Shown in pieces: positions 28,392 to 35,475 of a DNA stretch of 64,000 bases. The DNA is from Anaerolineae bacterium (lineage in GTDB: Bacteria > Chloroflexota > Anaerolineae > Aggregatilineales > UBA2796): assembly GCA_019637555.1 (NCBI GenBank), contig JAHBVK010000012.1:1-64000 (forward strand), written 5' to 3'. Numbering within the stretch: position 1 is the stretch's first letter; every line of letters begins with the position of its first letter. The notes under the pieces are model-generated. The model searched no databases. It was given only the letters and a program-made list of their open reading frames with translations, and was not told the DNA's origin. The translations under genes and the position numbers were made by a program.

Positions 28392-30053
28392 ATGGCTGAA
28401 CAAGTCTTAGAACTTCACAACATCACTAAAACCTACGGCGCAAAGGTCATCCTTGATCGCGTGTCGTTAATAATCAACCGCAAAGACCGGATCGGACTGG
28501 TGGGCGAGAACGGCGCAGGTAAAACCACCTTCGCCGCCATTATCATGGGCGAGATCAAGCCGGATGAAGGTGACATCCGCCCGACACCCGGACTAGAGAT
28601 CGGCTATCTGCCGCAGGAGGCAGGCTTTGATGAATCACTGACCGTCGCGCAATTCTTGGAAAACGCGATGGGTGGCTTGGAACTGCTGCGTACGCAGATG
28701 ACGGAGTTGGAGACGCACTTAGCCGCGCCAGCACTCAGTGCCGCCGCCATGAGCGATCTACTGGATCGTTACGGCGTGGTACAAGATGAGTTCGCCCGTC
28801 GTGGAGGCTACGACTCCGAACATCAGATGGATCAAGTATTGGCGGGTCTCGATCTTGCGTACATCGATCCCACTCGTTTGGCATCCACTCTCAGCGGAGG
28901 CGAGAAGACTCGCTTGGCATTAGCGGGTCTGCTGCTGCGATCACCGTTGCTGCTGATCCTTGACGAGCCGACCAATCATCTGGACATAGCAGCACTGGAA
29001 TGGTTGGAGAATTACCTGAGTTCTTATGCAGGGGCGCTGCTGGCAATATCGCATGACCGTCGCTTCCTGAATGAGGTCGTCAACCAGATCGTTGAGCTGA
29101 CGCCGCACGATCACAGGTTCACAGTCTTTCACGGCAACTATGACGCCTTTGCCTCTGAACGTGAGCGACTGCACGACCAGCAGCAAGAGGCTTACGAGGC
29201 ACAGCAAGAGGAGATCAAAACGCTGCAACGCCAGATCAAGATGACCCATCACAATGCTGGCTCAGGACGTCCGCCTTCCGATAACGACAAGTTTGCCAAA
29301 GGCTTCTTCATGGGCAGAAATGATGTCCTCAAGAGCCGCGAACTAAAGCAGTACAAACGCAAACTGGAAGAACTGCTGGAAAATCCCATCGAACGTCCAT
29401 CGCATGGCTGGTCGATCAACCCCGACTTTGCGCCCGATGAATTGGTCAGCCGGGATGTGATCCGGATCAACCACCTCTCCAAGTCTTTCGATGGTCGCGT
29501 GCTGTTCGATGACATCACAGCAGTGATCACGGCTGGCGAACGAGTGGTGCTGCAAGGACCAAATGGTGTCGGCAAAACCACGCTGCTCAAGATCATCCTT
29601 GGGCTAGAATCGCCTGATTGCGGTGAGGTGCGAGTCGCATCCGGTGCCCAGATCGGCTATCTCGATCAAGAACAGGAGTCACTTGATCCCAACGAAACGG
29701 TTTTGCAGGCTTATAGTCGTGGCTTGATAGGCTCGGAGACAGAGCATCGTTCCAGTCTGCACAAGTATGGACTGTTTTCCGATGAACAGGCGCTTCAGCA
29801 GATCGGCAACCTCAGTGTGGGGATGCGGCGCAAACTGCAAATCGCGCGGATGGTTGGTACGCGGGCAAATGTACTAGTCCTAGACGAACCAACCAATCAC
29901 CTCGATCTCGAAAGTGTGGAAAATTTCGAGCGTGCGCTGCGCGAGTTTCCCGGTACAGTGTTCGCCATCTCACATGACCGCACTTTTGCCGAGCACGTCG
30001 CTACCGCCATCTGGACGATCCAGGATCATCATCTGGTGGTCACACCACGCTAG
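28392..30053 (+). CDS. ABC-F family ATPase
   Basis: A 553-residue soluble protein with two ABC domains joined by a charged linker. Domain 1: GENGAGKTT, LSGGEKTRLALAG and LLILDEPTNHLD. Domain 2: GPNGVGKTT, LSVGMRRKLQIAR (an altered signature) and VLVLDEPTNHLD. There are no membrane segments, so it should act on the ribosome like EttA, Uup or the antibiotic-protection ABC-F proteins. The helical interdomain region runs roughly residues 245-345. The start has a clear GAGGTGAG site. The leader with terminator just upstream would suit an antibiotic-induced member, but housekeeping function is equally possible. Confidence 0.93.
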   Translation: MAEQVLELHNITKTYGAKVILDRVSLIINRKDRIGLVGENGAGKTTFAAIIMGEIKPDEGDIRPTPGLEIGYLPQEAGFDESLTVAQFLENAMGGLELLRTQMTELETHLAAPALSAAAMSDLLDRYGVVQDEFARRGGYDSEHQMDQVLAGLDLAYIDPTRLASTLSGGEKTRLALAGLLLRSPLLLILDEPTNHLDIAALEWLENYLSSYAGALLAISHDRRFLNEVVNQIVELTPHDHRFTVFHGNYDAFASERERLHDQQQEAYEAQQEEIKTLQRQIKMTHHNAGSGRPPSDNDKFAKGFFMGRNDVLKSRELKQYKRKLEELLENPIERPSHGWSINPDFAPDELVSRDVIRINHLSKSFDGRVLFDDITAVITAGERVVLQGPNGVGKTTLLKIILGLESPDCGEVRVASGAQIGYLDQEQESLDPNETVLQAYSRGLIGSETEHRSSLHKYGLFSDEQALQQIGNLSVGMRRKLQIARMVGTRANVLVLDEPTNHLDLESVENFERALREFPGTVFAISHDRTFAEHVATAIWTIQDHHLVVTPR

Positions 30054-31921: not shown

Positions 31922-31950
31922 TGGAAAATCATATATCTTTCTGCTACACT
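31922..31950 (+). promoter_or_regulatory. putative promoter of the Clp-RF fusion gene
   Basis: TGGAAA (31922-31927) and TACACT (31945-31950) are 17 bp apart, with four of six consensus matches each. Transcription would begin near 31957, leaving a short 5' leader that includes the GTGAGGA ribosome site before the ATG at 31981. Confidence 0.4.
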
Positions 31951-31980
31951 GAAAATCCAGACTGTGCGGGTGAGGACAAC

Positions 31981-34900
31981 ATGAAGTTCAAGTTTCACCT
32001 GTTCGTGCAGAAGCACCAGAACCGAACATACACGGTTACGGTGCTGCCGTTCGGTGATTTAACGAGCTTCGGCATCAACTTCGATGAGATCAAGAGTGAA
32101 CTCAGCGAGGCTATCAAAGAGCGTGTCCGCAGCACCCCGCCCCAGCATCTGCAGCACCTCGAATTCGATCCGCGTATCGGGCTGCAAAAAGTCACTGTGA
32201 CGCTGCGTCCGGCGGATCGCAAAAACGCCCGGAAACGCCGCGAACAAGTGAAGATGGTTTTCAGCGTCCTCGTCAAACCCGAAGATGACGGACAGCTACT
32301 TGTGACTGTACCTAAGCTGGGTCAGCCTGCACTCTCCTTCTATGTCTTCAATAAGGATGAACTGGAACAGCAAGCCTCCGTTGAGATCGCCGCATGGCTG
32401 GATGGCGTCCCGCTGGAGCGGTTGATCGAGTATCGCCATGCCCGCAGCGAAACGCTGGAAACAATGGAGATCGATATACCGCTGCGGAAGTCGAAAGATC
32501 AAGACGAAGATGCAGCGCTGAAACGCGATGAATCCTTCTGGGCGCTGCGCGAAGTCGGCGTCAACATGACGGCGCAGGCTGCGGAAGGGCGCTTCCGTCG
32601 CACTTACCGACGGGATCTACTGGTCGATGAATTGCTGCGCACGGTGATCGGTTCTCGGCATAACAGCATCCTACTTACAGGTGCCAGCGAAGTTGGTAAG
32701 ACAGCAGTGCTACACGAATTGGTGCGCCGCATCCAGCGCAAGGAATGCGATGAAAAGCTGCACGATCGCCAGGTCTGGATGCTCACGCCGGATCGACTGA
32801 TCGCGGGTGCTCAGTACATTGGTACTTGGGAAGAACGCATCAAGGACATCACCAACGAATGCCGCGTCAAGCAGCACATTCTCTACGTCGAGGATTTGCC
32901 CGGCTTGCTGGAAGTTGGGCGCTGGTCGAAAAGTGACTCTAACATCGGCATGGCGCTGCGCCCCTACGTCGCCGCTGGCGAGGTGATCATTATCGGAGAG
33001 AGCAGCCCCGAACGGCTGACGATGGGCATGAACACGGGTAGCAGCTTCATGAATCTGTTCCGCGTCTTCAATGTGGATGCACTAGCGGAAGATGAGACGC
33101 TCTCCGTTCTCAATAATGTCGCCCGCGATCTCGAACGCGAACTTGATCTGCGCATTGAGCCGAAAGCGTTGGAGACAACGATCACGCTGTCGCGTCGCTT
33201 CCTGCCCTATCGTGCCTTCCCCGGTAAAGCGATCCGCTTGCTGGAAGAAACGGTTGCCGATGCCAACAAGAAATTTGTACCGCGTCCCGATAATAGCGGC
33301 ACCTTTGGGACGACGGGCAGTTTATTGGCGCGGATCGGCACTCAACCACGCCTAACAGTCAGTCGCAATCTTGTGATCAACACCTTCAGCCGCCAATCGG
33401 GATTGCCAGAATTCATCGTTAACGACGATCTTCAACTACGACTCGATGAAGCGGAACAATTCTTCCGTGATCGCATCATCGGGCAGGATCAAGCGCTTGA
33501 AGCGATGATCAACATGATCGCCACCATCAAGGCAGGTCTGAACGATCCTAAGAAACCATTGGGAACTTTCCTGTTCATCGGACCAACGGGCGTTGGCAAG
33601 ACCGAGATGGCAAAGACCCTCGCGACCTATCTGTTCGGTGATCCCGCCCGTATGATTCGTTTCGACATGAGCGAGTACGGCAGTCTCGACGGTGTATCCC
33701 GTCTGATCGGTGCGTTCACCACTGAAGGCGAACTGACCCGCCGCGTGCGCGAACAGCCATTCTGCGTTGTCTTGCTGGACGAATTCGAAAAAGCCGATCC
33801 GCGCATCTACGACATTTTCCTGCAAGTCTTGGGCGAAGGTCGCCTCACCGATGCGCGTGGCAAGACCACCTCGTTCCACAACGCCATTATCATCTTGACC
33901 AGCAACTTGGGTTCTGGTCAGAAGCAGACTCGTCCACGTGGTTTCAGCACTGGCGATGAGGTCGATCACGATCTGATCACGACTTCGTTGACGCAGCACT
34001 ACAAAGCGCAGATCGAGCGCTATTTCCGTCCGGAGTTCGTCAACCGCATCGATCAGATCGTCACCTTCACGCAGCTAACACGTCCCGCGCTGCGCCAGAT
34101 CGCCACCCGCGAACTGAGCGAAATCCTGCGCCGTGATGGTATTCAGCGTCGCAATATGCCTGTAGAGATCGCGGACTCGGTGATCGAATTGGTGTTGGAG
34201 GAAGGTTACAGTCCTGTTTATGGAGCGCGTCCGCTGAAACGCGAGATCGAACGGTTGGTCGTCGCACCGATGGCACGGGTACTTTCCGAGACTCGCGGCG
34301 CCAAGCAAAAACTGCTGCGTCTCAGCGCCGAAGCTGGACATTTGCAGATTGAAACTGTGCCTATCGAAGAAGCGCCAGCAGAAATGGTCACGCTCACCGC
34401 CTCAGGTAGCGATGCCGAAAAACGGCGCATGGATGTTCCCGCGCTGATCGAGGCGTTAGCTGCACTGCGCCGCAAACTGGCGGATTGGGTCAACAGCGAT
34501 CCGATCCGCGAGATGCAGCACGAGAAAGTGCATTTGCTAGAACAGACGCAGAAGCCAGACTTCTGGCAGAACAGCGACGAAGCCCGCAACGGTATGTCTC
34601 GCTTCTATTTCGTGGATCGCTTGCTCTCGCGGCTGAACGATCTGGTCGAACGCGCTGAATATCTGGAAGATTTCGCCAGTATGATCGATAAAGAACGTGC
34701 CATCAGCTACCAGTCCGATCTGGCGCGGGATTACGAGGCTCTGCACCTGCAGGTCAGTTTCCTTGACATCGAATTGATGACGGCGCATCTGCCGCACCGC
34801 AACCAGACGATCCTCTTGATCCGTCCGTTCAGCGATCAGCCCTTCGCTTCAAGTGCGACAAACGATACATGGGCGCGCCAGCTAGCCACGATGTATCTAC

Positions 34901-35475
34901 ATTGGGCGGAGCGCAAAGGCTACGAATACGATCTCTACATGCTCGATTCCAAAGAGGGTGTTCCTGGCGGGATGAACTTCGCGTTGGTCAACGGCGGAAA
35001 CTTCGCCGATTTGCAGGAGAAGTTCGCAGCGCACACCGCCTCGCCGGAGATCGCCTTATTCGTGCGTGGAACCAACGCTTTCGGCTTTCTCAAGGGTGAA
35101 CGCGGACTCCACCGACTGCACGGACGCGATAGCAGTTCACAGGATCAACTGGCATTGGTGCGCGTGTTCGCCATCCCAGACGGCAAATCCGTTCCCCGTT
35201 GGCTGCGCGATTATCAATTCATCAAGTCGGAGATCATGGAAGGGCGGCGTCCTGAACCCGAATCGGAGACGCGCAAACCCGGCTACACCATCATCCGCGA
35301 CTACAGCCTCGATAAAACCGAGCGTTACGCCCGCGATCTGCGTACTGGCGTGCGGCTGACGGACACCAAATCGGTCTTCGGTGGCGCGATGGACGAATTC
35401 ATCCTTGCCTATCTCCGCACACAAGACTCCACGATCCTCTGGGAAGATCGCTATCCGCCAACCTTCCCTTACTAA
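31981..35475 (+). CDS. double-AAA+ Clp-like ATPase fused to a GGQ-less release-factor-2-like domain
   Basis: A 1164-residue protein with three parts. Residues about 1-150 are a non-Clp_N N-terminal domain I do not recognise. Residues about 190-800 hold two Clp/Hsp100 AAA+ modules: AAA1 with TGASEVGKT and pore tyrosine loop GAQYIGTWEER, but a weak Walker B (LYVEDLPG); AAA2 with GPTGVGKTEM (near 536), LLDEFEKA and sensor-2 PVYGARPLKREI. The AAA2 pore loop (GYVG in ClpB) is missing: LIGA runs straight into FTTEGEL. Residues about 817-1160 resemble RF2: a PCRF-like helical part, FLKGERGLHRLH, then RDYSLDK...DLRTGVRLTDTKSVFGG. The GGQ loop and SPF motif are absent. It has a good GAGG site and no cotranscribed neighbours. 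Confidence 0.88.
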   Translation: MKFKFHLFVQKHQNRTYTVTVLPFGDLTSFGINFDEIKSELSEAIKERVRSTPPQHLQHLEFDPRIGLQKVTVTLRPADRKNARKRREQVKMVFSVLVKPEDDGQLLVTVPKLGQPALSFYVFNKDELEQQASVEIAAWLDGVPLERLIEYRHARSETLETMEIDIPLRKSKDQDEDAALKRDESFWALREVGVNMTAQAAEGRFRRTYRRDLLVDELLRTVIGSRHNSILLTGASEVGKTAVLHELVRRIQRKECDEKLHDRQVWMLTPDRLIAGAQYIGTWEERIKDITNECRVKQHILYVEDLPGLLEVGRWSKSDSNIGMALRPYVAAGEVIIIGESSPERLTMGMNTGSSFMNLFRVFNVDALAEDETLSVLNNVARDLERELDLRIEPKALETTITLSRRFLPYRAFPGKAIRLLEETVADANKKFVPRPDNSGTFGTTGSLLARIGTQPRLTVSRNLVINTFSRQSGLPEFIVNDDLQLRLDEAEQFFRDRIIGQDQALEAMINMIATIKAGLNDPKKPLGTFLFIGPTGVGKTEMAKTLATYLFGDPARMIRFDMSEYGSLDGVSRLIGAFTTEGELTRRVREQPFCVVLLDEFEKADPRIYDIFLQVLGEGRLTDARGKTTSFHNAIIILTSNLGSGQKQTRPRGFSTGDEVDHDLITTSLTQHYKAQIERYFRPEFVNRIDQIVTFTQLTRPALRQIATRELSEILRRDGIQRRNMPVEIADSVIELVLEEGYSPVYGARPLKREIERLVVAPMARVLSETRGAKQKLLRLSAEAGHLQIETVPIEEAPAEMVTLTASGSDAEKRRMDVPALIEALAALRRKLADWVNSDPIREMQHEKVHLLEQTQKPDFWQNSDEARNGMSRFYFVDRLLSRLNDLVERAEYLEDFASMIDKERAISYQSDLARDYEALHLQVSFLDIELMTAHLPHRNQTILLIRPFSDQPFASSATNDTWARQLATMYLHWAERKGYEYDLYMLDSKEGVPGGMNFALVNGGNFADLQEKFAAHTASPEIALFVRGTNAFGFLKGERGLHRLHGRDSSSQDQLALVRVFAIPDGKSVPRWLRDYQFIKSEIMEGRRPEPESETRKPGYTIIRDYSLDKTERYARDLRTGVRLTDTKSVFGGAMDEFILAYLRTQDSTILWEDRYPPTFPY

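Follow-up and report, generated by a model that had tools for sequence, protein, structure and literature searches.

The DNA analysed here, referred to below as the window, comprises positions 1-64,000 (forward strand) of contig JAHBVK010000012.1, from the genome assembly GCA_019637555.1 of an Anaerolineae bacterium. One of its genes encodes a protein in which a double Clp-type AAA+ ATPase is joined to a C-terminal part resembling release factor RF2 (Table 1). This architecture had been proposed in an earlier note on the same DNA, and it is confirmed by Pfam and NCBIfam searches on the single 1164-aa open reading frame (ORF). Pfam places AAA_lid_9 at residues 370-430 (8e-9), AAA_2 at 525-693 (1e-42), ClpB_D2-small at 699-772 (6e-14) and PCRF at 850-1046 (8e-13), the last of these matches (PF03462) exceeding the Pfam cut-off. 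The NCBIfam ClpB model matches at 2e-115, with 386.8 bits, far below its cut-off of 1232, and the fusion scores far below the curated NCBIfam cut-offs for both ClpB and ClpA. The NCBIfam prfB model (TIGR00020) matches at 8e-24, with 91.2 bits, and does not reach its curated cut-off of 370; the best NCBIfam RF1 match is at 0.004.

Table 1. Positions, in the window, of the fusion gene, its parts and its upstream signals.
Feature	Position	Strand	Remarks and basis
Putative -10 element TACACT and ribosome-binding site GGTGAGG	31945..31980	+	read from the sequence; inference
Clp/Hsp100-RF2 fusion gene	31981..35475	+	single uninterrupted ORF, 1164 aa, ATG start
N-terminal domain, residues 1-186, in the place of Clp_N; subgroup A only	31981..32538	+	profile and Pfam
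AAA1 (D1): Walker A GASEVGKT, pore loop AGAQYIGTWEER with tyrosine, Walker B ILYVED	32539..33390	+	
AAA2 (D2) and D2-small; GYxG pore loop deleted	33391..34305	+	Pfam and motif reading
Loop TRPRGFS, at the position of the ClpP-docking tripeptide	33928..33948	+	alignment with ClpC-like paralogue
Motor-RF2 linker, about 40 residues	34306..34428	+	from Pfam D2-small end (772) to start of RF2 match
RF2-like module, residues 817-1164, RF2 domains 1, 2 and 4; without GGQ domain and SPF	34429..35472	+	
About 40 residues at the position of RF2 domain 3 (GGQ domain)	35164..35289	+	alignments; pLDDT

The N-terminal domain is unlike Clp_N, as the earlier note had it. Clp_N gives no Pfam match, residues 1-189 match no Pfam family, and a profile of the domain (A7) confines it to one subgroup of the fusions (subgroup A, see below), since its only matches among 41 genomes are ten subgroup-A proteins. 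A search of the PDB with this domain returned no credible match. The two halves of the domain (residues 1-170, window positions 31981-32490) align weakly with one another (hhalign probability 20%), and an alignment with HicB-type antitoxin folds, in the same register, has a probability of 11%. This gives a hint, and only a hint, of a possible tandem HicB-like domain.

Judging from the putative signals ahead of the start codon, the gene is probably transcribed from a promoter of its own. The matching upstream stretch in the sister genome G001 reads TATAGT ... GGGTGAGGAC; a consensus promoter scan did not recover the putative -10 element of the window. No CIRCE heat-shock operator was seen upstream of the fusion gene, so that there is no sign of heat-shock control by HrcA. 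Two genes upstream of the fusion lies the gene of an ABC-F ATPase of the ribosomal-protection type (28392-30053, plus strand; NF000355, 425 bits, above cut-off), a neighbour that recurs in G006 only. When 20 fusion neighbourhoods were compared, no adjacent gene family recurred except among near relatives, and neither a conserved neighbourhood tying the fusion to translation nor nearby hibernation genes were found. An operon, or guilt by association, was therefore rejected as a guide to function. Membership of a defence system was also rejected, PADLOC having given generic AAA matches only.

SmpB is encoded in 19 of 19 fusion genomes and an NFACT-R (RqcH-type) gene in 17 of 19, and the window genome encodes separate, complete RF1 and RF2. 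The idea that the fusion substitutes for trans-translation or for RqcH was rejected, as both are usually present; the fusion is thus an addition to these systems.

The RF2-like module

The last 348 residues derive from RF2 by sequence and by predicted fold, in agreement with the structural reading of the earlier note, which had placed such a module on an Hsp100 motor. A profile of the C-terminal modules of 16 fusions covers RF2 along its whole length (E=5e-64, compared with 2e-32 for RF1), and a phmmer search of the window protein against solved structures leads to RF2, the C-terminal DLRTGV segment included. The RF2-like motifs quoted in the earlier note were located at residues 1034-1048 and 1105-1145.

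According to the earlier note, a predicted structure that does not superpose on RF2 would refute this assignment, which has withstood that test. An AlphaFold2 model of residues 816-1164, built from aligned relatives and with a mean pLDDT of 78.7, superposes on E. coli RF2 (1gqe) with a Z score of 22.6 and 3.9 A over 282 aligned residues. Its decoding part (model residues 122-335) compares with the ribosome-bound RF2 of B. subtilis (9fy1) at Z 18.9 and 2.2 A over 145 residues. The modelled module of Herpetosiphon aurantiacus (pLDDT 89.1) matches 1gqe at Z 29.8 and 5.3 A over 332 residues. The match of the window module to the PrfH structure 9mor is weak (Z 8.8). In the window model, pLDDT falls below 50 at model residues 262-284 (protein residues 1077-1099), within the stretch of about 40 residues that replaces RF2 domain 3; the model suggests that this stretch is probably disordered.

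Where RF2 has HRLVR.SPF, the window protein has HRLHGRDSSSQ. The loss of GGQ and SPF was confirmed, both motifs being absent from all three forward frames between positions 34429 and 35600, so that no frameshift hides either of them there. The window protein is not classed as a release factor, because it lacks GGQ and SPF and remains under the curated prfB score. The positions W..L..MY..W, G..L..E.G.H and R.Y...D.RT are invariant across the RF2 modules of the fusions.

Distribution, subgroups and motor motifs

Full-length relatives, 56-76% identical to the window protein, were found in 9 of 40 close-relative genomes, and a tenth close relative (G040) carries a more distant version of the fusion. 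With a profile of the whole fusion, at least 16 of 400 sampled Chloroflexota genomes carry it (755-1270 bits), a lower bound from a scan that covered Chloroflexota and scored the two best candidates per genome. Plain Clp ATPases reached at most 571 bits against this profile, with an alignment ending before the RF2 part. In family f42, which contains Herpetosiphon and related species, the fusion is present in all seven sampled genomes, and the complete genome of the cultured H. aurantiacus DSM 785 (CP000875.1) contains the gene, at about 5089797-5092703. The rarity claimed in the earlier note stands in qualified form: the family occurs in about 4% of the sampled Chloroflexota genomes, but in 7/7 of one family.

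Peptides of subgroup B, searched against 84,980 species genomes, identified 22 relatives, among which every record with a named lineage belongs to Chloroflexota; one (L097) is recorded as 'uncultured bacterium'. A scan with the window protein's own peptides gave no match. These peptide scans gave no sign of a spread beyond Chloroflexota. The plasmid and phage matches listed were rejected as fusions; their annotation, or else their size and identity, marks them as ordinary RF2. Five records of the phage collection (H16, H18, H19, H24 and H25), 1.5-10 kb long, carry an ordinary RF2-like gene, and these short 'phage' records look like mislabelled host DNA.

The fusions fall into three subgroups. 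Subgroup A, to which the window protein belongs (about 1150-1190 aa), has the new N-domain and about 40 residues in place of the GGQ domain. Subgroup B (about 970-1035 aa; Herpetosiphonaceae, Thermoflexales and others) is devoid of the N-domain and keeps a region of the size of the GGQ domain, but RTSGAGGQHVNRT is shortened there to forms such as R-ADGYFLRKLR. Subgroup C (family f55) also lacks the N-domain, and a divergent stretch replaces domain 3. No catalytic GGQ was found in any fusion examined in the three subgroups; the letters GGQ in L097 were rejected as a catalytic loop, since they align with the 'THIPTG' strand of RF2. No fusion examined has kept SPF; Thermoflexales-type members retain an SPK remnant. 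The Trp of the RF2 switch loop is left only in Herpetosiphonaceae and G348-type fusions, and is lost in the window's subgroup. To judge from these motifs, the release chemistry is lost from the RF2 module of the fusion, the GGQ tip and SPF being gone in all members examined.

In a tree of D2 and in a tree of the RF module, both drawn from small comparison sets and with some long branches flagged, all fusions fall together behind a single branch, which has a support of 100/100 in both. Since they share this fully supported branch in the two trees, the three subgroups look like one origin and would fit a single fusion event.

The pore loops of the window protein are as the earlier note described them, the GYxG loop of AAA2 being deleted and the tyrosine loop AGAQYIGTWEER of AAA1 being kept. 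The D2 pore-loop region reads SRLIGA------FTTEGELT, versus ARLIGSPPGYKDSQRGGQLT in the ClpC-like paralogue of the same genome. Subgroups A and C have the D2 GYxG loop deleted, and subgroup B has it altered. In D1, an aromatic pore loop was read in 9 of 10 proteins of subgroup A and in 4 of 4 of subgroup C. As for the Chloroflexota ClpC-like paralogues L167 (G000:C110) and L166 (G017:C1), their D2 pore loop is GYKD or GYKG, and their D1 loop, SLRG, is without the usual aromatic residue.

The D2 ATPase motifs of the window protein are intact (Walker A GPTGVGKT, Walker B LLDE, sensor 1 TSN, arginine finger NR, sensor 2 GAR), and the same five D2 motifs (Walker B as DE) are kept in all readable tabulated fusions. 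The exception is the fusion of G051 (L069, G051:C391, minus strand), which was read separately; its degenerate D2 motifs (GPVGVGKI, LLDD, ASNV) suggest a motor probably devoid of ATPase activity. In AAA1 of the window protein, 'ED' is found where 'DE' is expected (ILYVED), the catalytic Glu being replaced by Asp. The Walker B Glu of D1 is lost in 32 of 34 readable fusions (DE in 2/34), and Walker A of D1 is kept. Of 36 readable fusions, 34 have GF where ClpC docks on ClpP, and many of these read VGF, LGF or IGF. The tripeptide is RGF in the window protein, with Arg in place of the hydrophobic residue, LSI in G015, and VGF in the ClpC-like paralogue of the window genome, which has two ClpP genes.

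Purifying selection on the fusion gene is strong: a comparison of four Herpetosiphon species gives omega values of 0-0.005 for D2, 0-0.045 for D1 and 0.02-0.07 for the RF2 module. Such values over a dead RF2 module imply that it is maintained for a function. Identity to the sister genome G001 is 68% in the RF2 part and 79-81% in the motor.

Possible roles of the fusion

The explanation that we prefer, and to which we give about an even chance, is that a captured, catalytically dead RF2 targets a Clp/Hsp100 motor to ribosomes. Docking at the decoding centre as a ribosome remodeller, the functional reading of the earlier note, would fit the preserved RF2 fold, the strong selection and the precedent of GGQ-less relatives binding the A site (see below). 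It can be proposed that the RF2 module would hold the motor on the ribosome while the peptide is not released, the likeliest contacts being those that domains 1, 2 and 4 make in RF2, at the A site and towards uL11. On ribosomes that have stalled, are damaged or stand idle, the hexamer would then burn ATP in D2, remodelling or extracting a substrate. Candidate substrates are a bound factor, the nascent chain or a ribosomal protein that has aggregated. The part left to D1 would mainly be nucleotide binding and, by way of its aromatic loop (subgroups A and C), a hold on the substrate, which might then be handed to ClpP. The fusion would supplement trans-translation and RqcH-type quality control, replacing neither. 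More specifically, and tentatively, since we put it at somewhat less than an even chance, the fusion could be the first AAA+ unfoldase known to be built on a release factor, docking in or near the A site through its dead RF2 for ATP-driven extraction or remodelling, as a one-protein counterpart of Vms1-Cdc48.

Several observations count against these proposals. The window's subgroup has lost the switch-loop Trp along with SPF and domain 3, GYxG is gone from D2, the D2 motifs of G051 are degenerate, and the gene neighbourhoods show no conserved tie to translation. Moreover, D2 of an Hsp100 ring has its C-terminus on the exit side. The RF2 module is therefore awkwardly placed for pulling a chain from the same ribosome, unless the 40-residue linker wraps round, which could ease this geometry.

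The RF2 module might instead have ceased to be a ribosome ligand and serve as a helical scaffold, an adaptor platform for hexamer assembly, regulation or client recruitment that can be likened to the M-domain or N-domain of other Hsp100s. The fusions are without Clp_N, they have lost SPF, GGQ and usually the switch-loop Trp, and their RF2 part evolves faster than the motor, by its lower identity to G001 and its higher omega. However, the entire multi-domain RF2 fold is kept, the decoding part (domain 2/4) and the invariant positions included. RF2 domain 1 is a long helical bundle, and it alone would suffice for a scaffold, so that we regard this alternative as rather unlikely. A misassembly, a frameshift or a decaying, functionless fusion could be suspected from an RF2 part without its active site. 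Such an artefact is extremely improbable and can be taken as refuted by the same architecture in the finished genome CP000875.1 and in many species, by the omega values, which indicate purifying selection, and by the absence of GGQ in any forward frame.

Two further possibilities keep the module on the ribosome. A special form of the preferred explanation would have the fusion act as a ClpP-coupled quality-control protease, docking on stalled ribosomes and passing the nascent chain or released ribosomal proteins to ClpP. The GF loop of 34/36 fusions, often VGF, LGF or IGF, and the two ClpP genes of the genome are in its favour; RGF in the window protein, LSI in G015, the crowding of the ClpP-facing side by six RF2 modules and a D2 without its GYxG pore loop are not, and we consider it unlikely. 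Even less credit can be given to a hibernation or anti-association factor, whose dead RF2 would occupy the A site under stress and whose motor would free the module or other factors on recovery. Balon, which is likewise related to release factors and devoid of GGQ (PMC10901736), provides the analogy for it, but neither hibernation genes nearby nor an upstream CIRCE operator, and hence no sign of HrcA control, accompany the fusion.

Comparison with known systems

A fusion of a Clp motor with a dead RF2 seems not to have been described previously. The search, which covered open-access full texts, found no description, and the term Clp is absent from a survey of the evolution of release factors published in 2019; the fusion may nevertheless be listed already in a subscription paper or on a domain-architecture page. 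The known bacterial ribosome rescue factors act by releasing peptides, splitting subunits or adding tags, and substrates normally reach Clp proteases via separate adaptors. If the preferred explanation is true, ribosome rescue and Clp systems would be linked within one protein, and the release-factor fold could have a further ribosomal use, besides hydrolysis and hibernation. Direct testing is possible, since H. aurantiacus is cultured, fully sequenced and carries the gene.

The fusion is best classed among the Clp/Hsp100 ATPases, as one that carries a new module derived from a release factor. With the class 1 Hsp100 proteins ClpC, ClpA and ClpB it shares two Clp-type AAA+ modules, D2-small and intact D2 motifs, and its GF tripeptide loop, RGF in the window protein, resembles that of ClpC. 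Unlike them, it is without Clp_N and has a degenerate D1 Walker B; its D2 GYxG is lost and no M-domain insertion was recognised in it. With RF2 (PrfB, TIGR00020; PDB 1gqe, 9fy1) it shares domain order, fold and signature over domains 1, 2 and 4. It differs by the absence of GGQ and SPF, by a domain 3 that is deleted (window's subgroup) or tipless (most others), and by its place behind an Hsp100 motor. PrfH is, like the fusion module, a divergent bacterial relative of RF1/RF2, but it is associated with RtcB2, binds damaged ribosomes and has no motor.

Other release-factor relatives are used on the ribosome without release chemistry. Balon is devoid of GGQ and NIKS, yet it binds the ribosomal A site (PMC10901736), and in Pelota/Dom34, another GGQ-less relative, the fold is used as an A-site ligand (PMC6514570). 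Both belong to the aeRF1 superfamily, which is unrelated to the RF2 of the fusion, and neither is fused to a motor. A parallel to our proposal is Vms1/VLRF-1, in which a release-factor fold works with the AAA+ protein Cdc48 in ribosome quality control (PMC6514570). However, Vms1-Cdc48 is eukaryotic, has different folds and consists of two separate proteins joined via a VIM peptide, whereas in the Chloroflexota protein the motor and the RF2-derived module form one chain.
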